NCBI GenBank assembly: GCA_023053545.1
Contig: JAKZAN010000005.1
Location: 4,712,001 to 4,776,000, forward strand
Direction: 5' to 3'
Length of the DNA: 64,000 bases
Origin: Lepidurus packardi
Lineage: Eukaryota > Arthropoda > Branchiopoda > Notostraca > Triopsidae
The notes under the pieces are model-generated. The model was not told the origin of the DNA and searched no databases. It saw only the letters and a program-made list of their open reading frames with translations. The position numbers and the translations under genes were made by a program. Positions 31,994-56,783 of the stretch are shown here, piece after piece (positions within the stretch are counted from its first letter, which is position 1; each line of letters begins with the position of its first letter).

Positions 31994-32666
31994 ATGAAGT
32001 TCTTGGTAAGTTATAAAATTAACTCTTGAATATGTATCCTAACATTCCGAATATTTTCAGATTTTACTCGCACTTCTGGTGGTAGCCGCAGGTCGCGTTT
32101 CTTCTGAAGACTCTGCTGATTTGACTGCTGAAGAACACAATCGCCGCGCATGGGCTGGGAGCAGTTATAGACATGGCGGTGGATATGGCAGTGGATATGG
32201 TGGTAGTCACGGCGGCCGTCACGTAGGTTACCAAAGTCACCGTGGACGTCGTGATGTCGGTGTGGTCGCTGAAGCTTCTGAAATCTCTGCTGATCTAACT
32301 GGTGCCGAACATCATCGTCAAAGATGGAGTGGATATGGTGGAGGTTACGGCAGTTACGGTGGAGGTTACGGCGGATATCGTGGTGGATATGGCGGTGGAT
32401 ATGGCGGTGGATATGGCGGTAGTCACGGAGGTTACGGACATTACCGCGGGCGTCGCGATGTCGATTTAGTCGCTGAAGCTTCTGAAACCTCTGCTGATTT
32501 AACTGGTGCGGAACACCATCGTCAAAGATGGAATGGATATGGTGGAGTGTACGGTGGAGGTTACGGTGGAGGTTATGGCGGATATGGCGGTGGATATGGC
32601 AGTGGATATGGTGGTGGATATGGCGGTGGATATGGCGGTGGATACGGTGGATATCGTCGCTGGTAA
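31994..32666 (+). CDS. GY gene A: secreted Gly/Tyr-rich modular precursor
   Basis: Exons 31994-32005 (four codons, MKFL) and 32061-32666 give 205 residues. The signal peptide MKFLILLALLVVAAGRVSS spans the splice junction. Three modules follow. Each pairs an acidic spacer (SEDSADLTAEEHNRR; then VVAEASEISADLTGAEHHRQR; then LVAEASETSADLTGAEHHRQR) with a Gly/Tyr-rich, partly His/Ser-rich segment made of GYGG units. RGRR/DV sites separate the modules and look like furin-type processing sites. The layout resembles multi-peptide precursors such as apidaecin-type antimicrobial precursors, but I cannot name a family. A structural secreted protein is the main alternative. A 12-base GGATATGGCGGT-type repeat makes the GYGG tract and may slip in replication. 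Confidence 0.85.
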
Positions 32667-33394
32667 ATTAACAAGTCTTCGACATTCTGAACTTCGAAAA
32701 CCATTCTACATACAAACTCTCCCTTTTACTATACGCCCCATCATAAGAAAGATGTTTCGACCTTCATCTGTTATTGTTTTTGAAAATACAGCTTCTGTTA
32801 CTCAACATGATATCTCGTTGGTACTATTCGCTCATTTTAGATACAAAATGCCTTAACAATATCCGTTGGTAAATTACGAAGTACTGTACTCCCTGATCCT
32901 GTGTAAAGAACCCACTTAGTTACTGTCCGCATCATCATCTACAAAAAAATTCTCGTCCCTCTGTTATTGGTCTTGAAAATACAGTTTTGTTACTGAACTG
33001 AATCATTTAATTAGATTTTGATTGACCTGCGAACATTTGCGTAGACTTTTTTGTCTGATCTGCTATTGCTACAGGTGCCCTCTAAAACAAGACATAACAC
33101 AGTATCAGATGCATATCCAGCTTGCAAAATTTTTTAAGTATAATAAGTAAGTACAGGTTCTGGGCAACGCTCCTGGCCATGCATATATATGGCCAATACA
33201 ATAGTACAGGTAAGAGTGGGGCAACATGTTACTGACAAGCAAATCTACTTTTTCTCGATGAAAATAACACCCACAGAAGTGTTTCTCTCCTAATAGTTTC
33301 ACGGCCACAGAACTACTATATAAGCAGTGGGCATTTTAATCTAGAGCACCATTCCCTCAGAGCAACTTGGAAAGGCTTATTTGAGAAATTCAAC
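32667..33394. other. Spacer with a deletion junction between genes A and B1
   Basis: The stretch 32742-32848 closely matches 35260-35365 and 41601-41706. At about 32849 the sequence switches to one matching the stop-codon region of GY gene C (TATCCGTTGGTAAATTACG). Copy 1 has thus lost a spacer plus gene C present in later copies. The right end holds the B1 promoter (GGCCA 33303, TATATAAG 33317-33324). Confidence 0.7.
33303..33324 (+). promoter_or_regulatory. Core promoter of GW gene B1
   Basis: GGCCA at 33303 is 14 bp upstream of TATATAAG (33317-33324). The ATG is 78 bp from the TATA start. Confidence 0.8.
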
Positions 33395-33969
33395 ATGAAG
33401 TTCTTTGTAAGTTTCATAATCAATCCAAATATCCTCTATTTAATTGCCAATTTAACTTTCAGATTTTACTGGCACTTGTCGTGGTAGCTTTAGCTGACGA
33501 TGTGAGCCCTGAAGCAAGTCATAGTCATCGTCATGGTGGCGGAAGTTTAGGCCACAGCGGATCATGGGGAGGATATCAAAGGTCGTGGGGTGGAAACCAA
33601 GGATCTTGGGGTGGCAATCATGGAGCTTGGGGAGGTCAACGCTGGCGCCGCGACACCGACTTGGTTGCTTTTGTTGTAGGTGATGACCAAGCTCTCGAAG
33701 CGAGCCAATGGGGAGGCAATCAATGGGGAGGTAGACAATCTGGAGGTAATCGTTGGGGTGGCAATGGCTGGGCAGGTCACCAAAGCATCGCCAATTCCGG
33801 TCACCGTGGAGGTCAGCGGTGGCGTCGTGATGTTGACTTGACTGCCGAAGAGGGCCAACACAATGGCTGGGGTGGAAGGAACTGGGGTACCCCTAACCAG
33901 GGCCGAGTAAATGGGTGGAACCATGGAAACGTGTGGAACAGCGGAAACACGTGGAACCGTCGTTGGTAA
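33395..33969 (+). CDS. GW gene B1: secreted Gly/Trp-rich modular precursor
   Basis: Exons 33395-33406 (MKFF) and 33463-33969 give 172 residues. The signal peptide MKFFILLALVVVALA ends before DDVSPEAS. The body has three Gly/Trp/Asn-rich segments (SWGGNQGSWGGNHGAWGG; QWGGNQWGGRQSGGNRWGG; GWGGRNWGTPN) separated by QRWRRDTDLVAF and QRWRRDVDLTAEE. Each RWRR is followed by an acidic spacer. The sites suggest proprotein cleavage, releasing basic Trp-rich peptides. This is the Trp counterpart of the GY genes, with the same promoter, intron position and signal peptide. No family name can be given. An open minus-strand frame across it is a composition shadow. Confidence 0.85.
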
Positions 33970-36900
33970 ACGAAGCAGTCCGAACATCAATCCTCAGAAA
34001 CGAAACCCCATTCAACAACTCTTTGTACTATTTCCATAATTCAAAATGAAAACTCGCTTACCTGCTATTGGTTTTGAAAATAAATCTGTTGGTTCATTAA
34101 TTCGAGAGTTTTATTATATTTCTTCTCCTGTAATTTTACCCTTATTTAACTTCGAATCGAAGTTTAATTCCAATCAAAGGCTATATATTTGTGCAAAACG
34201 TAAGATTAGAAGCAGAAGTTAGTCAGGTCTAATTTCGTTATAAGAATCAAACAAACAATTCATCAGTATATGTAAGACCATTTGTCGTAGGTCAAAACAA
34301 AACTGACTGCACCTGATGAATATTGCGAGGCTGCCGGCACTCTGACGTTCAAACATGACAAAGTTACGTAAGACGGATGAATGAGCATACTATTAGCAAC
34401 ATTTTGTTTATTTCTATAACTGTAAAATAACCAGTTCGTAGAAGTGGACCATTCACTGTTCTACATTATTTTTTTAATTCATTGTTAGCAGAGCACCCAC
34501 TAAAAGTCATTTAAACCGAAAGGACTCATGACCACCAAAGCAAGACCAACTGTAAATTATAATCCATTCCTAGCGGCTTTTAAAAACAATCTAACTAAAT
34601 AAGCAGTTAGTTCTTAGTAAGTTGCTAATAAACTCAGCCCTAACTTCTTTTCAACTTATCATATTTTATTAACACCAACCGACATAGCATTATTAGGGAC
34701 TGTTATATTATCTAAGTCCCGATTAACAACGTGGGTATATAGACGCATCGTTGGCTCCGTGATTCGGAAGCCCTAAGCAATAAGCTACCCTTATTGCTGA
34801 AGATGTACTACTGGGGACGCGGTAATAGTGACGGATTAGGTGGTCTTGGGTACGGTTTTTTGTGGCCGCGCCGTTGCTTCTTGAGAAGCAATGTTGCCAC
34901 GTAAATTTCCGTCTTTCATCTCTTCAAACACTGAACATTGATAATTAATCTAAGCGCGTATAAGCTTAACCTGACCAAATAATTTTGATTTGCAATTTGA
35001 AAACAGAAATATAATATCTGCCTTATTCTCATTGAACACCGCTTAAAAAACGGGTGGAGAAAAGACAGCCTGGAAACTCAGCTCAAATGGACACGTTTCC
35101 TGTTTGATTTTCATGAAGGACCTTGATCGAACTAGTGGATTCGTATTCCCAAGCCCTCACTCTACCTGGCAACCACTAAACCAGTAAAGAGATCCGAGTC
35201 TGCTGATGCTAAAACTTCCATCCATTGCATAAAGATGTTTCTGGGAAATACTCCAACATAAGAAAGATGTTTCGACCTTCATCTGTTATTGTTTTTGAAA
35301 ATATAGCTTCTGTTACTCAACATGGTATCTAGTTGGTACTATTCGCTCATTTTAGATACAAAATGCCTTTACTTATTCATTTCTTTTGTGCCATTAGTTC
35401 AGCGAAAGTCATCAAAGACGTCAGAATTGCATGCAAATCTGATGAAATACAGAGCAGTAAGCTGTGGTATGAAAGCCCAATATGGTGCAATATAACTCCA
35501 GTTGGAGTCTTGTTTAGTAAAAAAAAAAAAAAAGTACTAAAATGCCAAACCTTACTTTCCATTACGATAGCGAAAATTGTATCTTCTTTCAAAGTTTGCA
35601 AATTCTATAATGTAAACGTTATAATACAGTACGAGCTTTCCAGTTCGTTAAGGGTTTTTTTCAGAAATCCTCTTGGAATTGGGATAAATACAAGCTCGGA
35701 TTACAAAAATCAGACTCAATCATCATCATATTCTAGAATCTAACTGACCCATGCTGTTCTTGAATACAGATGAAAGCAACAGATTAAATACGAAGATCTG
35801 GAACTCACGAAGTAAGTGACTTTGAACCTTTGCTATGTCCTGGCGTTTTCTTATTAAATCCTCGACATTATCAAGGACATCGCTTCAATTCTCGCTGCAT
35901 AGTGAAATGTGCTCCAAAATTGTCTTCCTGTTCGGATTCCGCCTACTTCAAGACTTTCAAGTATCTCAGGATCTCTTTTTAGTACAATGTGTCATCCAGT
36001 AACATTTGCAAAATATTACTCGAGCATAATGACTATTATTCTTCAACTTTTCTATTGTATTGACTTAACGTTCTGTATTCCGCAAAAATAAGTATTTATC
36101 TACGAGTCGCTGAAGCCTAACTAACCTAACCTGTTTATAGCACTCTCATTTACTTTGCAAGAGACTCATCAGCCGAAACCTTTTTGCCAAAACACGAATC
36201 AAGATTGCGGTTTTACAATTCCTTGGGGATAACTATAACCTTGGATAATGAAAGATAAGACTAAAAGCCCACCGAAGTTTAGAGTTGTTATTTTTCTTAA
36301 AAAAAAACAGCCATTACGCATCTTTGTCTTTTGCCTTCGTTGTCTCGACGCGATTCATTTTGTCTCTGGCAATTAAAGGAAGAGTATCCTCGAAGGACAA
36401 CTTCAAATTGCATCAATCGAAAGGCTAATTTTAGTGTCACGGTCCACTAGTTACATCCATGGGTACCATTTCTGAAGAGTGAAGACGAGACCGAGGGGGT
36501 CACCTTGAATATCCCGAATTGAATACCGCGGATTGCAACAAAACGCAAACAACTTTTTTTCTAAGCGAAAAATGTACTGTCTTTTTTTCTTTAGGACAAG
36601 CGAGCTTGATATAGGTCTATAATGCACCTACACAAAAACAGGAGGGATGTATTAATATCTTGCAGCAATTAGGAACGCACTACAAGGTTATTTGGTATTA
36701 CGTAAATGTAGTCCTATCAATATCTACTGTGATCATTAGTGACAGCAGGTAAGGACGAACGCTCCAAAACAACATCCGGTTTGGCGTTGGGTTTTGCCTT
36801 TGGCTTTATAATTTTTTTCAAGGAATCTAAATTTCAGGCATGTAAGGAACTGAAAAATTGTTGATTTCGTCGGTCCATTTCCTTTCCTAAGAATGTTCCA

Positions 36901-38686
36901 TGGAACTTTCCAAGGTTGAAAGTGCGCTTTCGCTTACTTTAGTTGTCCTTGCTGACAACTAGGTGTTCCTTTCCAGTTTAGATGTTATCATAAACAACGG
37001 ACAAGGAACGCGTTAATTAAGTAGATCAACCAAAATGGTGCGTTTTTAATTTTTTTTGTTACAAAAAAATAGACACTTGCTTAGAAAAAAAATATTACGT
37101 TGAACGCTCCACGTTGAGGGTATATGCAGGGACGCCTTTTACTCCACACCCTTGCCACAGTTTAAAGGTGGGTATAATAACATATAATTCATGGATATAA
37201 GAGGAAAACCGGTGGCCATGAGAAAAGCCAGTTTTATCCCTTGGACAGGAAAATAGCTGCGTAACTACGCACGCCTTTGACTTGTATCCAATAAGAATGT
37301 CCTTAGATTCTGACCACCTTAGTATATTGTGTCAAATTTTTGTATACATGTATTTTTATAAGAAAATTTCTAAGAGCTTCCAAGTTCCCATAAAAGGCTT
37401 CGTCTCAGCAGGCTACGCTAAAGCGTACAGTTATGAACACACACACAAAGTAGATGGAAACCCTTCGTATATATAGACGAACCCTCCGTTTCGTGACGGC
37501 CTTTTTTCGAAATATTACTCATCAAGGTATTACCCATCTTTTCTTGTCTTTGGTAAAAATGATGTTTATAATTTTTCAAAAGTTTCCATCCACGTTTCCA
37601 AACCTTTTATGGACAAAGCCATTAAATACAGTTTTTTTACGACGGAACTAAGAAACCTACTTAATTCAGCAAAATGAAGGAAAAAACTGGTGGCCCTGAG
37701 GGAAACCAGTTTCACCTAAGAACTACATTACTTTTTTTTACCTCAAAACTACAAAAGTAGCCTTCGAATCGTACCCAATAACCAGCGCGCTTTGGTCTCC
37801 ATCCTATATACTACATAAAAGAGTATCTTTAGAAATTGTACGTCTCGGTGGTTTAAGGTAATAGGAACCAAAAATCCAGTTCAAACTCACCATCCACCTT
37901 ACCATATGCCAAATACCAGAACTAACCAGATACCCAGGCGTAAAGGTAGGTACTCAGTCGAATTGACTCGCACTTCGAAACAGACCAAAAAAGTGCCCCC
38001 CCCCCCACCTGCAATCCAGTCACCCTGAAAACATGAGCATGATCCACTTTTTGTGCGTACGCAACTTGCAGGCGTGCTTCGACAGAAAAGAAAAAAGAAC
38101 GCATAGAAAAACCACTGCTGTTACGTAGTACCGAGAGATGCAATAAAGATACAATAACAACAACACAGTTGACAATGAAACTCCTACAAACATTTTGGCA
38201 AAAAAAAAACATGGCAGAAATTGTCTACCGGTACCAAGCTCATGTTTAACCAGCTGGAACGCCTGGAAATCCCTCTGATTTGAATTCATATTTATATGTA
38301 AAACTGGCCGAAACTGGTTTCAGATAGACCTCCAAACCAACACACCCCCAACCCCACCGCGCCAAAACCAGGTAACTAATATTGAGATCAATAATCCTTT
38401 AACGTCCCAAACCGTGGAGAGGTTAATGAAAGTCGGTTTTACCTATGCCCGCTCTTTAAAAGTCCCTACGCAATAGATCCTCAAAAAATTGCACTGCAGC
38501 TGATGGGCACCGATGAAGCTTTTCCGTACCGCCACGCACGTTTTTCTTTCTTCGAGTGAAAATTCCCCAGCATGTATTTCCCCGAGAAAATTTACGGCCA
38601 CTGCTAGACTATAAAAACAAGGATGGCACTGTTTGGTAGCATCACTTACTTACAACAACTTGCAACGGCTAATTTCGCGATTTAAG
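33970..38686. other. Long spacer between genes B1 and C1
   Basis: About 4.7 kb without a supportable gene. It includes a remnant 3' UTR of an A-type gene (35260-35365), two similar imperfect palindromes around GGTGGCC (37204-37236 and 37684-37713), a short C run near 37997-38006, and the C1 promoter (38596-38617). Open frames of 60-136 codons here lack domains and start/stop context, and are identical in copy 2 only because the DNA is duplicated. Confidence 0.6.
38596..38617 (+). promoter_or_regulatory. Core promoter of GY gene C1
   Basis: GGCCA at 38596 is 14 bp upstream of TATAAAAA (38610-38617). The ATG follows 77 bp from the TATA start. Confidence 0.8.
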
Positions 38687-39218
38687 ATGAAGATCTTGGT
38701 AAGTTAAAAGGTTTGCTTAAAAAGTTAAATATTTTAACGCTTATTTATTTTAATTTCAGATTTTACTGGCACTAGTGGTAGTGGCCTTAGCTGATGACCT
38801 AGCTCCTGTAGAAGCCCCGTTATTTGGCGTTGCTGATGACCTGTCTTCTGAGGAACATCGCAATCGGGGCCATGACGTACAAGGAAATGGAGGAAACATC
38901 GGAGGGAATAGACGCTACGGCGGACACGGAATATATAACGCAGGGTATGGAGCCTACGGTGGGGGGCAAAGAGCTTATACAGGGTTTGGAGGCCACGCTG
39001 GGGGTTTTGGAAGTCACCGCGGGCGTCGTGATGTTAGTTTGGTCGCTGAAGCTTCTGAAACCTCTGATGATTTGACTACGGCCGAACATCACCGTCACAC
39101 ATGGGGTGGATATCGCGGTGGTTATGGTGGTTACGGTGGTTACGGTAGTTACGGTGGGTACGGGGGTTACGGTGGATATGGTGGATACGGAGGCTACAGG
39201 GGTTACATCCGTTGGTAA
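38687..39218 (+). CDS. GY gene C1: secreted Gly/Tyr-rich modular precursor
   Basis: Exons 38687-38698 (MKIL) and 38760-39218 give 156 residues. After the signal peptide (ILLALVVVALA) come DDLAPVEAPLFG and an acidic spacer VADDLSSEEHRNRG. A mixed Gly/Asn/Tyr segment runs to SHRGRR, then a second spacer DVSLVAEASETSDDLTTAEH, then a GGYGGYG repeat ending in YIRW. It has two Gly-rich segments rather than the three of gene A. The SLVAEASET spacer is nearly that of gene A, so A and C are close paralogues. Role unproven, as for the whole array. Confidence 0.85.
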
Positions 39219-39735
39219 ATTACGAAGTACTGTATCCTGATCCTGTGTAAAGAACCCACTTAGTTACTGTCCGCATCATCATCTACAAAAAAATTCTCGT
39301 CCCTCTGTTATTGGTCTTGAAAATACAGTTTTGTTACTCAACTGAATCATTCCATTAGATTTTGATTGACCTGCGAACATTTGCGTAGACTTTTTTGTCT
39401 GATCTGTTATGGCTACAGGTGAATTCTAAAAGAAGACATAACACAACATCAGATGCATATCCAGCTTGCAATATTTTTTAAGTATAAAAAGTAAGTACAG
39501 GTTCTGGGCAACGCTCGTGGCCATGAATATCTATGGCCAATACAATAGTACAGGTAAGAGTGGGGCAACATGTTACTGACAAGCAAATCTGCTTTTTCTT
39601 GATGAAAACACCCACAGAAGTGTTTCTCTCCAAAACGTTTCACGGCCACAGAACTACTATATAAGCAGTGGGCATTTTAATCTAGAGCACCATTCCCTCA
39701 GAGCAACTTGGAAAGGCTTATTTGAGAAATTCAAC
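39219..39735. other. Short spacer between genes C1 and B2
   Basis: 517 bp holding the C1 3' UTR and the B2 promoter. It aligns, with scattered differences, to the region before B1, and matches the region before B3 closely. Confidence 0.6.
39644..39665 (+). promoter_or_regulatory. Core promoter of GW gene B2
   Basis: GGCCA is 14 bp upstream of TATATAAG (39658-39665), with the ATG 78 bp from the TATA start, as in B1. Confidence 0.8.
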
Positions 39736-40310
39736 ATGAAGTTCTTTGTAAGTTTTATAATCAATCCTAATATCCTCTATTTAACTGCCAATTTAACTTT
39801 CAGATTTTACTGGCACTTGTCGTGGTAGCTTTAGCTGACGATGTGAGCCCTGAAGCAAGTCTTAGTCATCGTCATGGCGGCGGAAGTTTAGGCCACAGCG
39901 GACCATGGGGAGGAAATCAAAGGTCGTGGGGTGGAAACCAAGGATCTTGGGGTGGCAATCATGGAGCTTGGGGAGGTCAACGCTGGCGCCGCGACACCGA
40001 CTTGGTTGCTTTTGTTGTAGGTGATGACCAAGCTCTCGAAGCGAGCCAATGGGGAGGCAATCAATGGGGAGGTAGACAATCTGGAGGTAATCGTTGGGGT
40101 GGCAATGGCTGGGCAGGTCACCAAAGCATCGCCAATTCCGGTCACCGTGGAGGTCAGCGGTGGCGTCGTGATGTTGACTTGACTGCCGAAGAGGGCCAAC
40201 ACAATGGCTGGGGTGGAAGGAACTGGGGTACCCCTAACCAGGGCCGAGTAAATGGGTGGAACCATGGAAACGTGTGGAACAGCGGAAACACGTGGAACCG
40301 TCGTTGGTAA
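39736..40310 (+). CDS. GW gene B2: secreted Gly/Trp-rich modular precursor
   Basis: Exons 39736-39747 and 39804-40310 give 172 residues. It differs from B1 only near the start of the mature region (for example SLSHRH against SHSHRH, and GPWGGNQRS against GSWGGYQRS); the rest is identical. Both RWRR sites, the acidic spacers and the terminal NTWNRRW are kept. It spans the copy 1/copy 2 boundary of the 6,341-bp duplication, so the crossover probably fell inside this gene. Confidence 0.85.
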
Positions 40311-43300
40311 ACGAAGCAGTCCGAACATCAATCCTCAGAAACGAAACCCCATTCAACAACTCTTTGTACTATTTCCATAATTCAAAATGAAAACTCGCTT
40401 ACCTGCTATTGGTTTTGAAAATAAATCTGTTGGTTCATTAATTCGAGAGTTTTATTATATTTCTTCTCCTGTAATTTTACCCTTATTTAACTTCGAATCG
40501 AAGTTTAATTCCAATCAAAGGCTATATATTTGTGCAAAACGTAAGATTAGAAGCAGAAGTTAGTCAGGTCTAATTTCGTTATAAGAATCAAACAAACAAT
40601 TCATCAGTATATGTAAGACCATTTGTCGTAGGTCAAAACAAAACTGACTGCACCTGATGAATATTGCGAGGCTGCCGGCACTCTGACGTTCAAACATGAC
40701 AAAGTTACGTAAGACGGATGAATGAGCATACTATTAGCAACATTTTGTTTATTTCTATAACTGTAAAATAACCAGTTCGTAGAAGTGGACCATTCACTGT
40801 TCTACATTATTTTTTTAATTCATTGTTAGCAGAGCACCCACTAAAAGTCATTTAAACCGAAAGGACTCATGACCACCAAAGCAAGACCAACTGTAAATTA
40901 TAATCCATTCCTAGCGGCTTTTAAAAACAATCTAACTAAATAAGCAGTTAGTTCTTAGTAAGTTGCTAATAAACTCAGCCCTAACTTCTTTTCAACTTAT
41001 CATATTTTATTAACACCAACCGACATAGCATTATTAGGGACTGTTATATTATCTAAGTCCCGATTAACAACGTGGGTATATAGACGCATCGTTGGCTCCG
41101 TGATTCGGAAGCCCTAAGCAATAAGCTACCCTTATTGCTGAAGATGTACTACTGGGGACGCGGTAATAGTGACGGATTAGGTGGTCTTGGGTACGGTTTT
41201 TTGTGGCCGCGCCGTTGCTTCTTGAGAAGCAATGTTGCCACGTAAATTTCCGTCTTTCATCTCTTCAAACACTGAACATTGATAATTAATCTAAGCGCGT
41301 ATAAGCTTAACCTGACCAAATAATTTTGATTTGCAATTTGAAAACAGAAATATAATATCTGCCTTATTCTCATTGAACACCGCTTAAAAAACGGGTGGAG
41401 AAAAGACAGCCTGGAAACTCAGCTCAAATGGACACGTTTCCTGTTTGATTTTCATGAAGGACCTTGATCGAACTAGTGGATTCGTATTCCCAAGCCCTCA
41501 CTCTACCTGGCAACCACTAAACCAGTAAAGAGATCCGAGTCTGCTGATGCTAAAACTTCCATCCATTGCATAAAGATGTTTCTGGGAAATACTCCAACAT
41601 AAGAAAGATGTTTCGACCTTCATCTGTTATTGTTTTTGAAAATATAGCTTCTGTTACTCAACATGGTATCTAGTTGGTACTATTCGCTCATTTTAGATAC
41701 AAAATGCCTTTACTTATTCATTTCTTTTGTGCCATTAGTTCAGCGAAAGTCATCAAAGACGTCAGAATTGCATGCAAATCTGATGAAATACAGAGCAGTA
41801 AGCTGTGGTATGAAAGCCCAATATGGTGCAATATAACTCCAGTTGGAGTCTTGTTTAGTAAAAAAAAAAAAAAAGTACTAAAATGCCAAACCTTACTTTC
41901 CATTACGATAGCGAAAATTGTATCTTCTTTCAAAGTTTGCAAATTCTATAATGTAAACGTTATAATACAGTACGAGCTTTCCAGTTCGTTAAGGGTTTTT
42001 TTCAGAAATCCTCTTGGAATTGGGATAAATACAAGCTCGGATTACAAAAATCAGACTCAATCATCATCATATTCTAGAATCTAACTGACCCATGCTGTTC
42101 TTGAATACAGATGAAAGCAACAGATTAAATACGAAGATCTGGAACTCACGAAGTAAGTGACTTTGAACCTTTGCTATGTCCTGGCGTTTTCTTATTAAAT
42201 CCTCGACATTATCAAGGACATCGCTTCAATTCTCGCTGCATAGTGAAATGTGCTCCAAAATTGTCTTCCTGTTCGGATTCCGCCTACTTCAAGACTTTCA
42301 AGTATCTCAGGATCTCTTTTTAGTACAATGTGTCATCCAGTAACATTTGCAAAATATTACTCGAGCATAATGACTATTATTCTTCAACTTTTCTATTGTA
42401 TTGACTTAACGTTCTGTATTCCGCAAAAATAAGTATTTATCTACGAGTCGCTGAAGCCTAACTAACCTAACCTGTTTATAGCACTCTCATTTACTTTGCA
42501 AGAGACTCATCAGCCGAAACCTTTTTGCCAAAACACGAATCAAGATTGCGGTTTTACAATTCCTTGGGGATAACTATAACCTTGGATAATGAAAGATAAG
42601 ACTAAAAGCCCACCGAAGTTTAGAGTTGTTATTTTTCTTAAAAAAAAACAGCCATTACGCATCTTTGTCTTTTGCCTTCGTTGTCTCGACGCGATTCATT
42701 TTGTCTCTGGCAATTAAAGGAAGAGTATCCTCGAAGGACAACTTCAAATTGCATCAATCGAAAGGCTAATTTTAGTGTCACGGTCCACTAGTTACATCCA
42801 TGGGTACCATTTCTGAAGAGTGAAGACGAGACCGAGGGGGTCACCTTGAATATCCCGAATTGAATACCGCGGATTGCAACAAAACGCAAACAACTTTTTT
42901 TCTAAGCGAAAAATGTACTGTCTTTTTTTCTTTAGGACAAGCGAGCTTGATATAGGTCTATAATGCACCTACACAAAAACAGGAGGGATGTATTAATATC
43001 TTGCAGCAATTAGGAACGCACTACAAGGTTATTTGGTATTACGTAAATGTAGTCCTATCAATATCTACTGTGATCATTAGTGACAGCAGGTAAGGACGAA
43101 CGCTCCAAAACAACATCCGGTTTGGCGTTGGGTTTTGCCTTTGGCTTTATAATTTTTTTCAAGGAATCTAAATTTCAGGCATGTAAGGAACTGAAAAATT
43201 GTTGATTTCGTCGGTCCATTTCCTTTCCTAAGAATGTTCCATGGAACTTTCCAAGGTTGAAAGTGCGCTTTCGCTTACTTTAGTTGTCCTTGCTGACAAC

Positions 43301-45027
43301 TAGGTGTTCCTTTCCAGTTTAGATGTTATCATAAACAACGGACAAGGAACGCGTTAATTAAGTAGATCAACCAAAATGGTGCGTTTTTAATTTTTTTTGT
43401 TACAAAAAAATAGACACTTGCTTAGAAAAAAAATATTACGTTGAACGCTCCACGTTGAGGGTATATGCAGGGACGCCTTTTACTCCACACCCTTGCCACA
43501 GTTTAAAGGTGGGTATAATAACATATAATTCATGGATATAAGAGGAAAACCGGTGGCCATGAGAAAAGCCAGTTTTATCCCTTGGACAGGAAAATAGCTG
43601 CGTAACTACGCACGCCTTTGACTTGTATCCAATAAGAATGTCCTTAGATTCTGACCACCTTAGTATATTGTGTCAAATTTTTGTATACATGTATTTTTAT
43701 AAGAAAATTTCTAAGAGCTTCCAAGTTCCCATAAAAGGCTTCGTCTCAGCAGGCTACGCTAAAGCGTACAGTTATGAACACACACACAAAGTAGATGGAA
43801 ACCCTTCGTATATATAGACGAACCCTCCGTTTCGTGACGGCCTTTTTTCGAAATATTACTCATCAAGGTATTACCCATCTTTTCTTGTCTTTGGTAAAAA
43901 TGATGTTTATAATTTTTCAAAAGTTTCCATCCACGTTTCCAAACCTTTTATGGACAAAGCCATTAAATACAGTTTTTTTACGACGGAACTAAGAAACCTA
44001 CTTAATTCAGCAAAATGAAGGAAAAAACTGGTGGCCCTGAGGGAAACCAGTTTCACCTAAGAACTACATTACTTTTTTTTACCTCAAAACTACAAAAGTA
44101 GCCTTCGAATCGTACCCAATAACCAGCGCGCTTTGGTCTCCATCCTATATACTACATAAAAGAGTATCTTTAGAAATTGTACGTCTCGGTGGTTTAAGGT
44201 AATAGGAACCAAAAATCCAGTTCAAACTCACCATCCACCTTACCATATGCCAAATACCAGAACTAACCAGATACCCAGGCGTAAAGGTAGGTACTCAGTC
44301 GAATTGACTCGCACTTCGAAACAGACCAAAAAAGTGCCCCCCCCCCCACCTGCAATCCAGTCACCCTGAAAACATGAGCATGATCCACTTTTTGTGCGTA
44401 CGCAACTTGCAGGCGTGCTTCGACAGAAAAGAAAAAAGAACGCATAGAAAAACCACTGCTGTTACGTAGTACCGAGAGATGCAATAAAGATACAATAACA
44501 ACAACACAGTTGACAATGAAACTCCTACAAACATTTTGGCAAAAAAAAAACATGGCAGAAATTGTCTACCGGTACCAAGCTCATGTTTAACCAGCTGGAA
44601 CGCCTGGAAATCCCTCTGATTTGAATTCATATTTATATGTAAAACTGGCCGAAACTGGTTTCAGATAGACCTCCAAACCAACACACCCCCAACCCCACCG
44701 CGCCAAAACCAGGTAACTAATATTGAGATCAATAATCCTTTAACGTCCCAAACCGTGGAGAGGTTAATGAAAGTCGGTTTTACCTATGCCCGCTCTTTAA
44801 AAGTCCCTACGCAATAGATCCTCAAAAAATTGCACTGCAGCTGATGGGCACCGATGAAGCTTTTCCGTACCGCCACGCACGTTTTTCTTTCTTCGAGTGA
44901 AAATTCCCCAGCATGTATTTCCCCGAGAAAATTTACGGCCACTGCTAGACTATAAAAACAAGGATGGCACTGTTTGGTAGCATCACTTACTTACAACAAC
45001 TTGCAACGGCTAATTTCGCGATTTAAG
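40311..45027. other. Long spacer between genes B2 and C2
   Basis: Duplicate of the spacer at 33970-38686 with the same contents at +6,341: A-type 3' UTR remnant at 41601-41706, paired palindromes at 43545-43577 and 44025-44054, and the C2 promoter at 44937-44958. No supportable gene. Confidence 0.6.
44937..44958 (+). promoter_or_regulatory. Core promoter of GY gene C2
   Basis: GGCCA is 14 bp upstream of TATAAAAA (44951-44958). Identical to the C1 promoter. Confidence 0.8.
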
Positions 45028-45559
45028 ATGAAGATCTTGGTAAGTTAAAAGGTTTGCTTAAAAAGTTAAATATTTTAACGCTTATTTATTTTAATTTCAG
45101 ATTTTACTGGCACTAGTGGTAGTGGCCTTAGCTGATGACCTAGCTCCTGTAGAAGCCCCGTTATTTGGCGTTGCTGATGACCTGTCTTCTGAGGAACATC
45201 GCAATCGGGGCCATGACGTACAAGGAAATGGAGGAAACATCGGAGGGAATAGACGCTACGGCGGACACGGAATATATAACGCAGGGTATGGAGCCTACGG
45301 TGGGGGGCAAAGAGCTTATACAGGGTTTGGAGGCCACGCTGGGGGTTTTGGAAGTCACCGCGGGCGTCGTGATGTTAGTTTGGTCGCTGAAGCTTCTGAA
45401 ACCTCTGATGATTTGACTACGGCCGAACATCACCGTCACACATGGGGTGGATATCGCGGTGGTTATGGTGGTTACGGTGGTTACGGTAGTTACGGTGGGT
45501 ACGGGGGTTACGGTGGATATGGTGGATACGGAGGCTACAGGGGTTACATCCGTTGGTAA
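45028..45559 (+). CDS. GY gene C2: secreted Gly/Tyr-rich modular precursor
   Basis: Exons 45028-45039 and 45101-45559 give 156 residues identical to C1. It has the same promoter, intron, signal peptide, one RGRR site and terminal YIRW. It adds gene dosage, unless the duplication is an assembly artefact. Confidence 0.85.
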
Positions 45560-46076
45560 ATTACGAAGTACTGTATCCTGATCCTGTGTAAAGAACCCAC
45601 TTAGTTACTGTCCGCATCATCATCTACAAAAAAATTCTCGTCCCTCTGTTATTGGTCTTGAAAATACAGTTTTGTTACTCAACTGAATCATTCCATTAGA
45701 TTTTGATTGACCTGCGAACATTTGCGTAGACTTTTTTGTCTGATCTGTTATGGCTACAGGTGAATTCTAAAAGAAGACATAACACAACATCAGATGCATA
45801 TCCAGCTTGCAATATTTTTTAAGTATAAAAAGTAAGTACAGGTTCTGGGCAACGCTCGTGGCCATGAATATCTATGGCCAATACAATAGTACAGGTAAGA
45901 GTGGGGCAACATGTTACTGACAAGCAAATCTGCTTTTTCTTGATGAAAACACCCACAGAAGTGTTTCTCTCCAAAACGTTTCACGGCCACAGAACTACTA
46001 TATAAGCAGTGGGCATTTTAATCTAGAGCACCATTCCCTCAGAGCAACTTGGAAAGGCTTATTTGAGAAATTCAAC
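45560..46076. other. Short spacer between genes C2 and B3
   Basis: 517 bp, the duplicate of 39219-39735, with the B3 promoter at its right end (TATATAAG at 45999-46006). No other feature seen. Confidence 0.6.
45985..46006 (+). promoter_or_regulatory. Core promoter of GW gene B3
   Basis: GGCCA is 14 bp upstream of TATATAAG (45999-46006), with the ATG 78 bp from the TATA start. Confidence 0.8.
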
Positions 46077-46651
46077 ATGAAGTTCTTTGTAAGTTTTATA
46101 ATCAATCCTAATATCCTCTATTTAACTGCCAATTTAACTTTCAGATTTTACTGGCACTTGTCGTGGTAGCTTTAGCTGACGATGTGAGCCCTGAAGCAAG
46201 TCTTAGTCATCGTCATGGCGGCGGAAGTTTAGGCCACAGCGGACCATGGGGAGGAAATCAAAGGTCGTGGGGTGGAAACCAAGGATCTTGGGGTGGCAAT
46301 CATGGAGCTTGGGGAGGTCAACGCTGGCGCCGCGACACCGACTTGGTTGCTTTTGTTGTAGGTGATGACCAAGCTCTCGAAGCGAGCCAATGGGGAGGCA
46401 ATCAATGGGGAGGTAGACAATCTGGAGGTAATCCTTGGGGTGGCAATGGCTGGGCAGGTCACCGAAGCATCGCCAATTCCGGTCACCGTGGAGGTCAGCG
46501 GTGGCGTCGTGATGTTGACTTGACTGCCGAAGAGGGCCAACACAATGGCTGGGGTGGAAGGAACTGGGGTACCCCTAACCAGGGCCGAGTAAATGGGTGG
46601 AACCATGGAAACGTGTGGAACAGCGGAAACACGTGGAACCGTCGTTGGTAA
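46077..46651 (+). CDS. GW gene B3: secreted Gly/Trp-rich modular precursor
   Basis: Exons 46077-46088 and 46145-46651 give 172 residues. It differs from B2 by two substitutions in the middle segment: NPWGGNGWAGHRS against NRWGGNGWAGHQS. Both RWRR sites and the acidic spacers are kept. Downstream DNA marks the decaying third copy of the duplication. Confidence 0.85.
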
Positions 46652-48189
46652 ACGAAGCAGTCCGAACATCAATCCTCAGAAACGAAACCCCATTCAACAA
46701 CTCTTTGTACTATTTCCATAATTCAAAATGAAAACTCGCTTACCTGCTATTGGTTTTGAAAATAAATCTGTTGGTTCATTAATTCGAGAGTTTTATTATA
46801 TTTCTTCTCCTGTAATTTTACCCTTATTTAACTTCGAATCGAAGTTTAATTCCAATCAAAGGCTATATATTTGTGCAAAACGTAAGATTAGAAGCAGAAG
46901 TTAGTCAGGTCTAATTTCGTAATAAGAATCAAACAAACAATTCATCGGTATATGTAAGACCATTTGTCGTAGGTCAAAACAAAACTGACTACACCTGATG
47001 AATATTGCGAGGCTGCCGGCACTCTGACGTTCAAACATGACAAAGTTGCGTAAGACGGATGAATGAGCATACTATTAGCAACATTTTGTTTATTTGTATA
47101 ACTGTAAAATAACCAGTTCGTAGAAGTGGACCATTCACTGTTCTACATTATTTTTTTAATTCATTGTTAGCAGAGCACCCACTAAAAGTCATTTAAACCG
47201 AAAGGACTCATGACCACCAAAGCAAGACCAACTGTAAATTATAATCCATTCCTAGCGGCTTTTAAAAACAATCTAACTAAATAAGCATTTAGTTCTTAGT
47301 AAGTTGACAATAAACTCAGGCCTAACTTTTTTTCAACTTATCAGATTTTATTAACACCAACCGACATAGCATTATTAGGGACTGTTATATTATCTCCCGA
47401 TTATAAGTCCCGATTAACAACGTGGGTATATAGACGCATCGTTGGCTCCGTGATTCGGAAGCTACCCTTATTGCTGAAGGTGACTACTGGTGAAGCGGTA
47501 ATAGTGACGCTTTTAGATTAGGTGGTCTTGGGTACGGTTTTTTGTGGCCGGGCCGTTGCTTCTTGAGAAGCAATGTTGTCTTCTCCATGACATAGTTGCC
47601 ACGTAAATTTCCATTTTTCATCTCTTCAAACACTGAACATTGATAAGTAATCTAAGCGTATATAAACTTATTCTGAACAAATAATTTTGATTAGCTATTT
47701 AAACACAGAAATGTAATATCTGCCTTCTCATTGAACACCGCTTAAAAATACGGGTGGAGAAAGGACAGCCTGGAAACTGAGCTCAAATGGACACGTTTCC
47801 CGTTTGTTTTCATGAAGGGCCTTGATCGAACTAGTGGATTTGTACTCCCAAGCCCTCACTGTACCTGGCAACCACTAAACCAGTAAAGAGATCCGAGTCT
47901 GCTGATGCGAAAACTTAGATCCATTGCATAATGCAGTTTCTGGGAAAGACTCCTTAGCAAAAACCACCAAAAGGAAAAGCTATGTACATGGCTGCCACAT
48001 GCAAGACACGTTTGTCAACAACCATGGAGCTTTTGTCACTTTCCTTCAAAGAAACTGCCGAAACACTTGATTTGTAAGTGCTTTGCAGCCGAAATACTAC
48101 GTTCTCATGGCCAATGCTCAACTACTTAAGCGCAGGTTTCAGAAATCTAAAGCAACATTTACTCAGAGCAGCTTGCAAAGGCTTAATTT
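46652..48189. other. Spacer with the shortened third duplication copy
   Basis: 46652-47953 aligns to the other spacers with increasing substitutions and indels, then stops matching. The rest leads into a decayed promoter: GGCCA at 48109 sits 14 bp before TACTTAAG (48123-48130), where intact genes have a TATA box. Confidence 0.6.
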
Positions 48190-48813
48190 GAGCAGTTCTT
48201 TGTAGGTTTAAAGTAACATTGAACTTTTACTAATCTTAATTTTCGTTTGCCTTGTAGATTTTACTGATAGTTGCCGCATTAGCGCTAGCTGACGATTGAA
48301 GTTCAGCGGAAAATCATTCGCGTGGACATGGCGGCTCCCACCACGGTGGAATCCGACACAGTAGCTGGGGTCGCGGACGTCGCGATGTCGCAGATGATGT
48401 TTTTGTAATGGTAGAAAACCCGAACTTTTTAGCTGACCAATATGCGAAAGAAGTTCGTAACAGAGGGCATAGCGGCAAACACATCGGAGGATCCTGGTGT
48501 GTAACTCGCGGATCTTGGGGTGGTTAACGCTGGTTCCGCGATACCGACTTAGCCGCTCCTATTCTGGATGACGACCAAGCCCTCGATGCGAGCCAATGGG
48601 GAGCTACCCGTCGGGGGGCAATCCCTGGGGAGGTCAAGGAAGCGTTGTTATTTCTGGCCGTCGATGGCGTCGTGATGTTGACTTGACTGCCGAAGACGGC
48701 CGCATCATCGGCTGGGGTGGAAGAAATTGGTAACCTCTAGCCAGGGCCGCGGAAATGCGTGGAACCATGGAAACGTATGGAACAGCAGAATCCCCTTGAA
48801 CCGCCGCTGGTAG
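48190..48813 (+). pseudogene. GW pseudogene (fourth Gly/Trp-rich member)
   Basis: The first-exon ATG-AAG is lost; the sequence goes straight from GAGCAG to TTCTTT and an altered donor (GTAGGT). Exon 2 begins at 48258 with a recognisable signal-peptide code (ILLIVAALALADD), but a TGA at 48297-48299 follows at once, with more stops (TAA near 48525) and at least one frameshift. GRGRRDVADD, FRDTDLAAPILDDDQALDAS and a final RDVDLT-like spacer can still be read across frames, showing descent from a GW gene. It ends near a TGG-TAG at 48808-48813. Confidence 0.85.
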
Positions 48814-49601: not shown

Positions 49602-50201
49602 ATGAAGACCTTCGTAAGTTACAAGATCCACTTCAATATATCTTAATCTTAAAGGTTATTTCATTGTATTTTATTTCAGATTCTTTTGGCACTCGTGGTG
49701 GTGGCTTTGGCTGATGACCTAACTTCCGAAGAGCATAAACACAGAAATTATGGACACAGAACTGGAGGATACGGACATGGTGGTTACTATCGTCGAGGAC
49801 GCCGTGATGTTCAAGACGACACTGCTGTAGCCGTAGATGCCCCAGTCTCCGTTAGCGATGAACTATCGTCGGAAGAGCACCGTCAACGAGGATATGGCAA
49901 CGTATATGGCGGCGGATATGGAGGCTACAACGGCGGATACAACTACTACCCTGCCAGCTACGGAAGTTATGGCGGATACTCTAGCGGACACTATGGTGGC
50001 AACCGCTGGCGTCGTGATGTCGCTTTAGTAGCTGAAGTTCCCCAAATCTCTGCTGATTTGACCACTGACGAGCACCATCGCCGCCGCTATGGTTATTCTA
50101 GCTACGGATACGGTTACCCTCGCAATGGCTATTCCAACTACGGTTATGGAAATGGTTACGGTTATGGTAACCGCGGCTACTACGGTTACAATCGTTGGTA
50201 A
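49602..50201 (+). CDS. GY gene E: secreted Gly/Tyr-rich three-segment precursor
   Basis: Exons 49602-49613 (MKTF) and 49680-50201 give 177 residues. The order is: signal peptide ILLALVVVALA; acidic DDLTSEEHKHR; short GY segment to YRRGRR; acidic spacer DVQDDTAVAVDAPVSVSDEL and SSEEHRQR; GY segment to GGNRWRR; spacer DVALVAEVPQISADLTTDEH and HRRR; then a final YGYSSYGYGYP-type segment ending NRW. The regular acid/base alternation and RGRR/RWRR sites suggest three released peptides. E, F, G and H form one sub-group. Confidence 0.85.
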
Positions 50202-51358: not shown

Positions 51359-51957
51359 ATGAAGTTCTTCGTAAGTTACAGAACCACTTGCAATTGCATA
51401 AATACCTAAGTTGTTTATTTCGCTTTCAGATTCTTTTGGCACTCGTGGTGGTGGCTTTGGCAGATGACCTAACTTCGGAAGAGCACAAACACAGAGGTTA
51501 TGCTGGTGGTTACAGAACAGGCGGACATGGGCATGGCGGTTATTATCGTCGAGGTCGCCGTGATGTTCAAGACGACACTGCTGTAGATGTAGATGCCCCA
51601 GTCTCGATTCTCGATGAACTATCGTCGGAAGAACACCGTAACCGAGGATATGGCAACGTATATGGCAGCGGATATGGAGGCTACAACGGCGGATACAACT
51701 ACTACCCTGCCAGCTACGGAAGTTATGGCGGATACTCTAGCGGACACTATGGTGGGAACCGCTGGCGTCGTGATGTCGCTTTAGTCGCTGAAGTTCCCCA
51801 AATCTCTGCTGATTTGACCACTGACGAGCACCATCGCCGCCGCTATGGTTATTCTAGCTACGGATACGGTTACCCTCGCAATGGCTATTCCAACTACGGT
51901 TATGGAAATGGTTACGGTTATGGTAACCGCGGCTACTACGGTTACAATCGTTGGTAA
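51359..51957 (+). CDS. GY gene F: secreted Gly/Tyr-rich three-segment precursor
   Basis: Exons 51359-51370 (MKFF) and 51430-51957 give 179 residues. Layout as gene E. The first segment is longer and His-rich (GYAGGYRTGGHGHGGYY), and the middle spacer reads VDVDAPVSILDELSSEEH. The last part, from RWRRDVALVAEV to the end, is the same as in E. Confidence 0.85.
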
Positions 51958-53110: not shown

Positions 53111-54179
53111 ATGAAGTTCTTCGTAAGTTACGGAACCATTTTTAATTGTGTAAATCCGTAAGTTCTTTATTTCACTTTCAGATTCTTTTGGCACTCGTGA
53201 TGGTGGCTTTGGCTGATGACCAAACGTCCGAAGAGCACAAGCACAGAAGTTATGCTGGTGCTTATAGAACAGGCGGACATGGACATAGCGGTTATTATCG
53301 TCGTGGTCGCCGTGATGTTCAAGACGACACTGCTGTAGCCATAGATGGCTCAGTCTCGGTTCTCGATGAACTATCGTCGGAAGAACACCGTCACCGAGGA
53401 TATGGCAACGTGCATGTAGGCTACAACGGCGGATACAACCACTACCCTGCCAGATACGGAGGTCATGGCGGATACTCTAGCGGACTCTATGGTGGCAACC
53501 GTTGGCGTCGTGATGTCGCTTTAGTCGCTGAACTTCCCCAAGTTGCTGCTGATTTGACCACTGACGAGCACCACCGCCGCCGCTATGGGCACCTTCACCG
53601 GCCTTGGGCTGGTTAGGAGACTTTAGCATAGCCTATTAGGAGTTAGCTCCGGCTTGTTAATTAGTGGTTGCCCTTCTCTCTCGCTCTTTGGGCTTGCCCG
53701 CCTCGGAGGTCCGCGTCACAGCTTAGAGAAAAGCCCCTTCTAGAGACTGGACCTCTCTCCCTTCCCTCCTCGAGAGGTTTTTCGCCGTGGCCGCGTACCT
53801 TTCACCTTGGTATATAAGGAAGACGGTCAGCTAGGGTCACCAGTGCGTTCCAGTGCGCTGTGCCATCCGAGCCTTAACAGGCCCTTACCTCCTGCTCTCC
53901 GGGTCTTCTTCGCTTTACCTCCCTCCCACCCTTCATTCTTCCAAACCCTTTCGTCCCTTTTTTGGACTCTCGGTGGAAGTGGCTCTGGGCCCGGGACCTT
54001 CGTTCCCCTGGGACCAGAGTGGAATTTCCATCGAAGAGGCCCCTGGTTTCCTCCACAAGCGCGACGAACAACGAAGGATAAGCTAAGGTTATTCTAGCTA
54101 CGGATACGGCTATCCTCGCTACGGCTATTCTAACTACGGTTATGGCAACCGCGGCTACTACGGTTACAATCGTTGGTAA
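53111..54179 (+). pseudogene. GY gene G, split by a 0.5-kb insertion
   Basis: Exon 53111-53122 and exon 2 from 53182 encode the usual signal peptide, first GY segment, RGRR, middle segment and RWRR spacer. The frame enters inserted DNA at 53589 and stops at 53616, giving a 148-residue product that lacks the last GY segment. The missing 3' part is still readable after the insertion (54089-54179, ending NRW and TAA). Its promoter and splice sites look intact, so a truncated secreted protein with two Gly-rich segments may still be made. Several substitutions (ALVMVALA, DIDGSV-type changes, AELPQVAADL) also set it apart from E, F and H. Confidence 0.85.
53589..54082. mobile_element. Insertion in gene G, LTR-like
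   Basis: Flanks are CTATGG (53583-53588) and CTAAGG (54083-54088), a possible 6-bp target duplication with one mismatch. The inserted 494 bp is C/T-rich and unlike the array. It holds a TATATAAGG box near 53810 followed by AGTGCGTTCCAGTGCG, an arrangement seen at the promoter of LTR retrotransposons. It lacks the usual TG...CA ends, so a solo LTR is only the best guess. Confidence 0.55.
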
Positions 54180-54758
54180 TTGAATCGATACTCGAAAAAA
54201 TACTTCAACATTCCCTGTGTTGAGATTTGTTCCCATCATCCAAAATGCTCATTCGCTCACCTGTTACGACTCTTTAAATAAAACATTTCAAGTTAAATCT
54301 AGACTGTTTTGTTTTATTTACTTTCTTACACGTTCATTAAAAACATATTAGACTTATAAGAAAGAAAAAATCCAGTTTGCCCGGAAATTATCAGACAAGA
54401 GAGAAACTGTTCCATCAATCCGCTATTGCCATATTTTCTTGTAGCAGTATATCAAGTTCTCCTTATATGAGGTGGTGTTCAGCTGCTTGCCTTGGCGTCG
54501 AGCAACATTTTTAAGCCGCGACAATATATCTGCTCATCAATAATGTTCTAAGAAACTGTGTGGGAGAACGCAGTTTCTTAGAACATTAGAACACTGCAAC
54601 TAGATAAAGCTTTCCTAAAACCTTTATCTGCCTCTTACACAAATCATATGACGTTCACTGAGCTCAGATTGAACGACCTCGTCGACTCTACAAGTCGCCA
54701 CCATACTAAATGTATACATTCGCATAATAAATGCATATAGGAAAATATAATGGACCAG
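54180..54758. other. Gene G 3' region with a second, unmatched insertion
   Basis: 54180-54475 aligns to the 3' regions of E and F. From about 54476 to 54735 the sequence has no match there, then the shared spacer resumes. The unmatched part includes a perfect inverted repeat (54541-54588). Confidence 0.5.
54541..54588. repeat. Perfect 18-bp inverted repeat
   Basis: TAATGTTCTAAGAAACTG (54541-54558) and its exact reverse complement (54571-54588) surround a 12-base loop. It lies within DNA that interrupts the shared spacer, so it may mark a small non-autonomous element. Confidence 0.6.
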
Positions 54759-54760
54759 TA

Positions 54761-55264
54761 TTAGAAAGAGCGAGAGCCCTTCTGGTCGCTTGGAAAAATC
54801 CACCCACATGCCTAGTAGAAGCCCGGAAATGGATTGAAGAATCGATGATGGAGGCGTGGAAGAACCGGTGGATAGCAAATAAAAGCCCCCTAAAAGATCT
54901 ACATATCACCCCCTCCCAACGAGGGATAGTCGATACCAACCTCCAAAGAAGTATCATCTCCAAGATTATTCAAATTCGGACAACACACTACCCAACAAAA
55001 TCCTACCTAAAACGCATCGGCAAAGTGGAATCGGAGTCATGTTCCTGTCGCGAACAATCAAACCAAGATCTCAGACACCTTATTTTCCACTGCCGAAACC
55101 TGAACAAGGAGAGAGCAATCCTGTTGAGGAAACTGGGCACACTTCGTTTGCACTTCAACTCACAAGAACTCCTCACCAACCAACGAATCTATACAACACT
55201 AGTCACATTTATGGAGAAAGCAGTTGTAAAAGTTGTAAAAGCAGTTGCAAAAAAGAAGTTGTAA
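54761..55264 (+). pseudogene. Retrotransposon ORF2 C-terminal fragment
   Basis: The open frame covers the region after the RNase H domain of jockey/R1-type elements. It has EAWKNRW, a YLKRIG motif, then CSCREQ and LRHLIFHCRN, the usual C-x-C...H...C tail. No reverse transcriptase domain remains, so it is inactive. Its last codons are made of the GTTGTAAAAGCAG-type tandem repeat. Confidence 0.8.
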
Positions 55265-55312: not shown

Positions 55313-55485
55313 AAACTAACTCCCTTACCACCTTATCCATATACATGTGTCCCAAACACTTTTTTTTCTCTTTTACTGGTACTGTAGTTAACTTTCTGCT
55401 TTTTAGTAAAAACTGTAAGTAGAGTAGAAGCCAGCAACAGGCGTAAGCCTACACGGCCACCTTAATAAAAAATAAAATGGACCAG

Positions 55486-56184
55486 CAAGCAGTAGACAAA
55501 CCCCAACCTGCGGGTTGTGATTAGTAGTAATAGACACGCGGAGTCTTACGCGCAAGATACTGCTAACGTATTTCTTTTTTACGCGACTTATGTCTTAAAA
55601 CGCATTACTCTGGAAACACTAGCAGGATTCTTCAGTTCTAAAGTCAAGAACGAAAACACTGAGTTGTTCCGAAGATACCCAAATATTGCCCATTTTTCCA
55701 CATCCTTGGTATACAAAATGTTTCGACACATATATACATAATGCGAAATCCTTGGAAGAATAGATTATAATAAACAAATAATAAATAGGAATGTTATGAA
55801 CAAAAAAATTCCTAAATTACTGTAGCTGTCATCTGTCGTTATATTTTGGGCTTACTGTTGCAAAAGATCGCATGATAAATTAGATGGAAAATCAAACTTG
55901 AGAATGTTAGTTAACCTGAGTTCCTTCTATGCAAAGATGTAGTTTGGGTCTAATATAGGGTTTCGGTTCTAGTCAACGCTTTAGGGAAAAAACACAGGGC
56001 AACAGGCAGGCATAGTGCGGAAACAGTTGGTTGTACCTTTCTTGCTTATTTTCCAAAGGAACTCTACCAAAGGGGCTCATCCTATTTTTCATGGCCATTG
56101 ACAGACTACAAAAGGAGCGCTCACAATCTCACCAAATATCATTCCCTCAAAGGAACTCCTACAGACTACATTAAGTACTTCAAT
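55486..56184. other. Spacer before gene H
   Basis: About 700 bp aligning, with more divergence, to the E-F and F-G spacers. It holds the gene H promoter at 56093-56114. No other feature seen. Confidence 0.6.
56093..56114 (+). promoter_or_regulatory. Core promoter of GY gene H, TATA box altered
   Basis: GGCCA at 56093 is 14 bp upstream of TACAAAAG (56107-56114). In E, F and G this site reads TATAAAAA. The changed third base probably weakens TBP binding. Confidence 0.7.
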
Positions 56185-56783
56185 ATGAAGTTCTTCGTAA
56201 GTTACATAACCACTTTCAATTGCATAAATACCTAAGTTGTTTATTTCGCTTTCAGATTCTTTTGGCACTCGTGGTAGTGGCTTTGGCTGATGACCTAACT
56301 TCCGAAGAGCACAAACACAGAGGTTATGCTGGTGGTTACAGAACAGGCGGACATGGGCATGGCGGTTATTATCGTCGAGGACGCCGTGATGTTCAAGACG
56401 ACACTGCTGTAGCCGTAGATGCTCCAGTCGCGATCCTCGATGAACTATCGTCGGAAGAACACCGTCATCGAGGATATGGCAACGTATATGGCGGCGGATA
56501 TGGAGGCTACAACGGTGGATACAACCACTACCCTGCCAGCTACGGAGGCCATGGCGGATACTCTAGCGGGCACCGCTATGGTGGCAACCGCTGGCGTCGT
56601 GATGTCGCTTTAGTCGCTGAAGTTCCCCAAATCTCTGCTGATTTGACCACTGACGAGCACCATCGCCGCCGCTATGGTTATTCTAGCTACGGATACGGTT
56701 ACCCTCGCAATGGCTATTCCAACTACGGTTATGGAAATGGTTACGGTTATGGTAACCGCGGCTACTACGGTTACAATCGTTGA
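56185..56783 (+). CDS. GY gene H: secreted Gly/Tyr-rich three-segment precursor, altered end
   Basis: Exons 56185-56196 (MKFF) and 56256-56783 give 179 residues. It is nearly gene F in its first part (GYAGGYRTGGHGHGGYY, then AVAVDAPVAILDEL) and the same as E and F in its last 60 or so residues. The final Trp codon TGG is now TGA (56781-56783), so the product ends NR instead of NRW; a TAA follows directly. With the weakened TATA box this may be an early stage of decay, or a neutral change. Confidence 0.8.

Follow-up and report, generated by a model that had tools for sequence, protein, structure and literature searches.

The window analysed here, a stretch of 64,000 nucleotides from the genome of Lepidurus packardi (C4:4712001-4776000), holds an array of genes whose predicted products are secreted precursors, in which acidic stretches alternate with basic ones rich in Gly and Tyr or in Gly and Trp. 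The array is genuine and conserved, as is the design of the precursors. An earlier note on this DNA had described about eleven related loci on one strand between 31994 and 56783, with Tyr and Trp chemistries at a single locus. This description is borne out: on the + strand there are ten genes of two exons each, together with one decayed copy (Table 1); the final coding end lies at 56783, and Gly/Tyr (GY) and Gly/Trp (GW) genes are both present in the array. The genes were assigned by eye to types GY-A, GY-B, GY-C and GW. In all ten, exon 1 consists of 12 bases (four codons), its ATG being the first position given for the gene in Table 1, and it is followed by an intron of 55-66 bases with the borders GTAAGT...TTTCAG. 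The note had listed a four-codon first exon among the features common to the loci; it is indeed found in every gene, but it is not specific to the family, as two RR cuticle genes of the same genome have one. Chance low-complexity open reading frames (ORFs) were considered as an explanation for the array and were ruled out by the splice sites, by the ratios of non-synonymous to synonymous divergence (dN/dS) and by a family-specific promoter.

One tandem repeat with 99.6% identity (33 mismatches over the compared stretch) contains three GW and two GY-B genes, and because this 6341-bp repeat is near-identical these genes do not count as five independent ones; the repeat may represent either a recent duplication or an assembly matter. 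The repeat inserted into the GY-C gene at 53111 has an inner part of 421 bases that is near-identical on contigs C5 and C3, and short pieces of it occur on C2, C7 and C1. Elsewhere in the window, a 177-residue ORF at 54731-55264 resembles, by eye, the end of a retrotransposon protein of the LINE (long interspersed nuclear element) type, and two adjoining ORFs on the - strand at 57257-59075 look leucine-rich by eye; neither feature gave a Pfam match.

Table 1. Coordinates of the genes, promoter elements and repeats of the array (positions within the window).
Feature	Position	Strand	Remarks
Core promoter element TTTCAYGGCCAY...ACTATAWAA, first gene	31898..31924	+	from upstream alignment
Core element equivalents, approximate starts	33297, 38591, 39638, 44932, 45979, 49505, 51261, 53014, 56087	+	
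GY-A gene	31994..32666	+	exon 1 31994-32005, exon 2 32061-32666; 205 aa; three spacer/segment units
Tandem repeat, period 6341 bp, ~2.2 copies	33255..47400 (end approximate)	+	carries GW and GY-B copies
GW gene, copy 1	33395..33969	+	172 aa; two RWRR sites
GY-B gene, copy 1	38687..39218	+	156 aa; one RGRR site
GW gene, copy 2	39736..40310	+	two-exon model
GY-B gene, copy 2	45028..45559	+	protein identical to copy 1
GW gene, copy 3	46077..46651	+	two-exon model
Decayed GW-like copy	48258..48813 (borders approximate)	+	in-frame stops; start not found
GY-C gene	49602..50201	+	177 aa; three units
GY-C gene	51359..51957	+	179 aa; three units
GY-C gene, frame broken by inserted repeat	53111..53616	+	reading frame interrupted
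Inserted repeat, ~500 bases	53589..54088 (borders approximate)	+	inside the GY-C gene at 53111
3' remainder of the GY-C gene at 53111	54089..54179	+	NRW and stop retained at end
GY-C gene	56185..56783	+	179 aa; stop one codon early, NR instead of NRW

Relatives, promoters and selection

The genome searched comprises 108.56 Mb in 344 contigs, of which C1-C6 measure 10.7 to 14.0 Mb. A census of the family was drawn from protein searches of this genome in which the best candidates were scored, so its counts are lower bounds, and it places family members on at least four long contigs. At least five multi-unit genes lie outside the window: C2:2895k (GY-C), C2:9964k (GW, with a non-standard donor, GTATGC, read by eye) and C4:4799k, C4:4816k and C4:4822k (GY-A, the latter two near-identical); a GW fragment was also found at C4:4798k. 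The census further includes at least three single-unit Gly/Tyr relatives, C1:10179k, C3:911k (E 8e-11) and C4:1441k (E 0.0016), which share a plan in which a signal and an acidic pro-region are followed by a basic site (KWKR, KWKK or KYRR) and a Gly/Tyr segment; given its E value, the kinship of C4:1441k rests on weak similarity together with the same plan. Adjoining C1:10179k is a further single-unit paralogue, C1:10183k (locus L051, 8275-8409; E 0.014), whose mature part is rich in His and Asp, with a repeated DHH and the terminus HKW, and whose pro-region shares 24 of 29 residues with that of the Gly/Tyr gene C3:911k. A third predicted chemistry, His/Asp-rich, is thus present outside the window on a single-unit paralogue with a similar pro-region. 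A weak Gly/Tyr ORF at C5:8417k was rejected as a member for its few charges, and a control search of the genome for other Gly/Tyr proteins returned one family gene only, a result for which low-complexity limits are probably responsible.

The RR cuticle matches of the assembly, at least 150 among 266 candidates, mark it as that of an arthropod. It contains other material of note. Several COX1-like stretches with TGA codons lie inside long contigs (C6:697216, C4:1531505, C2:1546412 and others) and are probably nuclear copies of mitochondrial DNA; a COX1-like stretch translated with the invertebrate mitochondrial code has one stop and, by our reading, resembles a protein of pancrustacean type. 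Many short contigs, C74, C80 and C240 among them (loci L001-L008), carry kinase matches with several in-frame TAA or TAG codons and few TGA, which suggests that ciliate contigs are mixed into the animal assembly.

Alignment of 14 upstream regions revealed one conserved block, TTTCAYGGCCAY...GGACTATAWAA, located at the TATA box. With one mismatch allowed, this core element has 13 hits in 108.6 Mb, all of them at family genes, and the backward control has none. Related forms occur at the gene at 49602 (one base shorter) and at C2:9964k (diverged), and some form of the element is present at all 15 multi-unit genes found; the single-unit genes are absent from the 13 hits. The exon-1 pattern ATGAARNTYTTNGTAAGT also has 13 hits in the genome, which comprise ten family genes, the two RR cuticle genes mentioned above (L054 and L064) and one site on contig C44. 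When the 600-bp regions of 11 representatives were scanned, TATAAA was found 17 times against 8.4 expected and GATAA was depleted (3 against 15.7).

The family is under purifying selection. Comparison of the GY-C genes at 51359 and C2:2895k yielded a dS of 0.83 and a dN of 0.16, and at their two cleavage boundaries there are five synonymous changes and a single non-synonymous one (at the X of RXRR, where W is replaced by G). In this pair dN is 0.15 in the spacers and 0.20 in the segments, so the segments are not evolving markedly faster. Across the GY-C genes dN/dS is 0.17-0.24 when the interrupted gene at 53111 is excluded and 0.33-0.50 when it is included. For GY-A the ratio is 0.27-0.40 in three pairs with the gene at 31994 and 0.32 in the near-identical pair. 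Two GY-A pairs with C4:4799k, which share the near-identical partners, gave 1.48 and 1.66, and in the one of them that was tested positive selection was not significant (Fisher's exact p 0.45).

Precursor design and predicted cleavage

The proteins begin with a hydrophobic, signal-like stretch, MKFF/ILLALVVVALA, as judged from the sequence and from a structural model. In a single-sequence AlphaFold2 prediction of the exon 2 chain of the gene at 51359, an N-terminal helix (residues 2-14) is the only element formed and the mean predicted local distance difference test score (pLDDT) is 45, so a folded domain was rejected. The earlier note had proposed a secreted multi-gene precursor family and had named described cuticle, silk or eggshell families as the alternative to check. 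The first proposal agrees with the hydrophobic start and its helix, the repeated units and the retained cleavage motifs, all of which point to predicted secretion and processing. For the second, the Pfam part of the check found none of the five members scanned to reach the cut-off for any family, the chitin-binding domain Chitin_bind_4 (PF00379) included; the single hit was at chance level (E 0.73). A sequence search of the PDB with one member gave no match up to E = 1.

Statistics on motifs and charge were obtained from 17 distinct proteins, which are related, so that the events counted are not independent. The furin-type motif RX[KR]R occurs 25 times in these proteins as compared to 2.5 times in shuffles, and RX[KR]R followed by Asp or Asn occurs 23 times, whereas 2000 shuffles average 0.25 and never exceed 3. 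This excess, and the retention of the boundaries between paralogues, supports the suggestion in the note that basic sites separate the units, and the chains are very probably cut at these predicted sites. To examine the alternation of charge without chosen borders, the proteins were cut at RXRR, the motif was dropped and each of the resulting 40 parts was divided in the middle. Of these parts, 39 have a negative first half and 38 a positive second half, and an acidic first half followed by a basic second half occurs in 37, against a shuffle mean of 8.9 (maximum 18 in 2000); the acidic spacers and basic Gly-rich segments that had been noted by inspection therefore do alternate. Segment charges of +2 to +9 obtained earlier are biased upward, as the border was placed at the last acidic residue and the RXRR motif was counted, and the automatic borders were partly misplaced. 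The single-unit genes have stronger contrasts, their first and second halves carrying -8/+9, -5/+2 and -7/+6.

The ends of the segments follow a limited set of patterns. A terminal Trp is found in 15 of 18 genes, or 16 of 19 when C1:10183k is counted, the exceptions being the interrupted gene at 53111, the gene at 56185 and C1:10179k. RW|RR occurs at the internal sites of GW genes and at the second site of the four GY-C genes in the window, and RG|RR or RR|RR elsewhere; trimming of RR at RW|RR would produce the same end as the free RW with which the last segments terminate, and amidation is conceivable at RG|RR. The EEHxxR border between spacer and segment is the predicted place of a second cut, which is fairly probable; paired basic residues mark this border in some units (HNRR, HHRRR) as well as in the single-unit genes, at their KWKR, KWKK and KYRR sites.

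Candidate roles of the peptides

We propose that the proteins are preproproteins that would act as strings of peptides. The signal would direct the chain to the secretory pathway, where a furin-type convertase would cut after RGRR, RWRR or RRRR and a carboxypeptidase would remove the basic residues, with possible amidation of the RG|RR ends; the second cut near EEHxxR would then separate the acidic spacer from the Gly-rich peptide. Each precursor would thus yield two or three peptides, disordered, free of cysteine, mildly cationic and some 20-50 residues long; their likeliest job would be host defence at the surface, in the gut, in the egg or in the haemolymph. The family may have grown by duplication of units, by tandem duplication of genes and by the replacement of one mature part by another (Tyr, Trp or His/Asp) behind a related pro-region. 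An antimicrobial role for the products is a genuine candidate that we rate a little below even. It had been rated as an even call, and the estimate was lowered because the basic segments are modestly charged without the motif, so that the products are clearly basic only with the uncertain cut near EEHxxR. The wider proposal of a previously undescribed antimicrobial arsenal in a branchiopod-type crustacean, in which one pre-pro cassette is loaded in turn with Gly/Tyr, Gly/Trp and His/Asp peptides and the multi-unit genes, each stringing together two or three peptides, have a private core promoter, is rather unlikely.

Cationic disordered peptides are known to act as microbicides, according to the accessible part of a study of hornerin peptides (PMC6399351). 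Of 17 promoters, each taken as 160 bp, 8 have kB-like sites between about -115 and -130 (in GY-A, GY-B, the gene at 49602 and C2:2895k), as compared to 12.3% of 5000 random pieces of that length. In the 600-bp scan a loose kB form was found 11 times against 4.6 expected, a count reached in 3 of 200 resamplings, and another form 4 times against 1.1 expected (9 of 200). As a defence signal these sites are suggestive only.

A number of observations weigh against an antimicrobial role. The 17 promoters are homologous, so the kB counts are not independent; nine of them (all three GW, three of the four GY-C promoters in the window and all three single-unit) have no kB-like site, and two strict kB forms were found 0 times in the 600-bp scan, where 0.2 and 0.6 were expected. 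When the cleavage motif is excluded, charges in the second halves of multi-unit parts range from 0 to +4, apart from one part of C2:9964k at +6, and in 26 of the 37 multi-unit parts the sum over the whole part is neutral or negative, with a minimum of -7. The EEHxxR border mostly lacks a standard convertase site, reading HRNR, HRQR, HKHR or HRHT outside the paired-basic cases, and the EEH motif is missing from the GW spacers. There is no sign of positive selection, the near-identical GW copies having too few changes to tell. In the same study, as far as its accessible part goes, short peptides from hornerin with a charge of +3 or below were mostly inactive on the test bacterium, and Tyr and Trp are classed as order-promoting (PMC6399351).

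The precursors may instead be structural: Gly/Tyr/Trp-rich proteins of the cuticle, egg shell or egg glue that are cut by a convertase and then assembled or cross-linked through Tyr and Trp, the acidic spacers holding the basic segments soluble until release. We regard this as a serious, if doubtful, possibility. Disordered proteins rich in Gly and Tyr are frequent components of shells and cuticle, and an intron after a short first exon is typical of arthropod cuticle genes, a position for which our literature check found no paper. The four-codon first exon shared with L054 and L064, the Gly/Tyr repeats, the AlphaFold2 model lacking a fold, the modest charge outside the cleavage motif, the purifying selection and the common core promoter with its TATA box are all consistent with such proteins, as are the large tandem arrays in which RR cuticle genes of this genome are arranged among the matches listed (150 scored among 266 candidates). 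On the other hand, despite the exon-1 plan, an ordinary RR cuticle protein was rejected on the lack of an RR domain in the five members, which match no other Pfam family over the cut-off either; the nearest RR match on the window's contig, among the 150 scored, is about 0.7 Mb away. The conserved cleavage boundaries also argue against a structural role, as does the joining of a His/Asp mature part to a similar pro-region.

Two further roles are improbable. The repeated units, basic cleavage sites and amidation-like RG|RR ends would suit neuropeptide-like or other signalling precursors that give rise to a series of related peptides, with amidation of some at RGRR; the segments, however, are long (~20-50 residues), low in complexity and variable, the units of one gene differ greatly, and several of the tandem genes are near-identical. 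Long variable segments and near-identical tandem genes are atypical of neuropeptide precursors. There is a similarly slight chance that RXRR is unused and that the proteins act intact, for instance as metal-binding polymers or as charged ones resembling silk. Cleavage at RXRR is a prediction, and the His/Asp paralogue could bind metal, but the excess and conservation of the RXRR motif argue for its use.

Comparison with known systems

An antimicrobial function, if true, would help to fill a gap, as a survey of the Daphnia pulex genome recovered no antimicrobial peptides (PMC2685406) and a crustacean comparison describes Daphnia as lacking anti-lipopolysaccharide factors (ALFs) and crustins (PMC5437397), both as stated in the accessible parts of these reports. 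The family is a concrete candidate, with defined genes, predicted peptide ends and a common promoter element, and it offers a putative case of mature peptide chemistry exchanged on a retained precursor frame. No description of it was found in the literature searched, whose coverage was mostly of papers outside subscription.

The likenesses given here are drawn from published descriptions, in so far as these are accessible, and concern type, not homology. Drosophila Baramicin A (BaraA) is likewise a secreted precursor from which several peptides are cut at RXRR furin sites, whereas Gly/Tyr-rich peptides and long acidic spacers do not appear in the accessible part of its description (PMC8423362), and the L. 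packardi family, unlike BaraA, spans four long contigs with changing chemistry. The nlp-29 cluster and caenacins of Caenorhabditis elegans resemble it as Gly/Tyr-rich putative antimicrobials encoded in a small cluster of tandem genes whose diversity arises by duplication, but multi-unit precursors and furin sites are not part of that description as available (PMC2453101). In Nasonia, navitripenicin and hymenoptaecin are putative antimicrobials that are rich in Gly, carry a positive charge and follow an acidic propeptide; navitripenicin further has a dibasic cleavage site and a phase 0 intron, and nahymenoptaecin-2 has repeats (PMC2853521). These are insect families, however, and the accessible account of them does not include a single precursor frame with three chemistries (PMC2853521). 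RR cuticle proteins (Chitin_bind_4) share with the family the tandem arrays and, in two genes here, the four-codon first exon, but not the RR domain, which the five scanned members lack. The kind of system is therefore already known, both as strings of peptides separated by furin and as Gly-rich antimicrobials; set beside these systems by description, the family itself looks new, and so do its three chemistries and the private promoter element.

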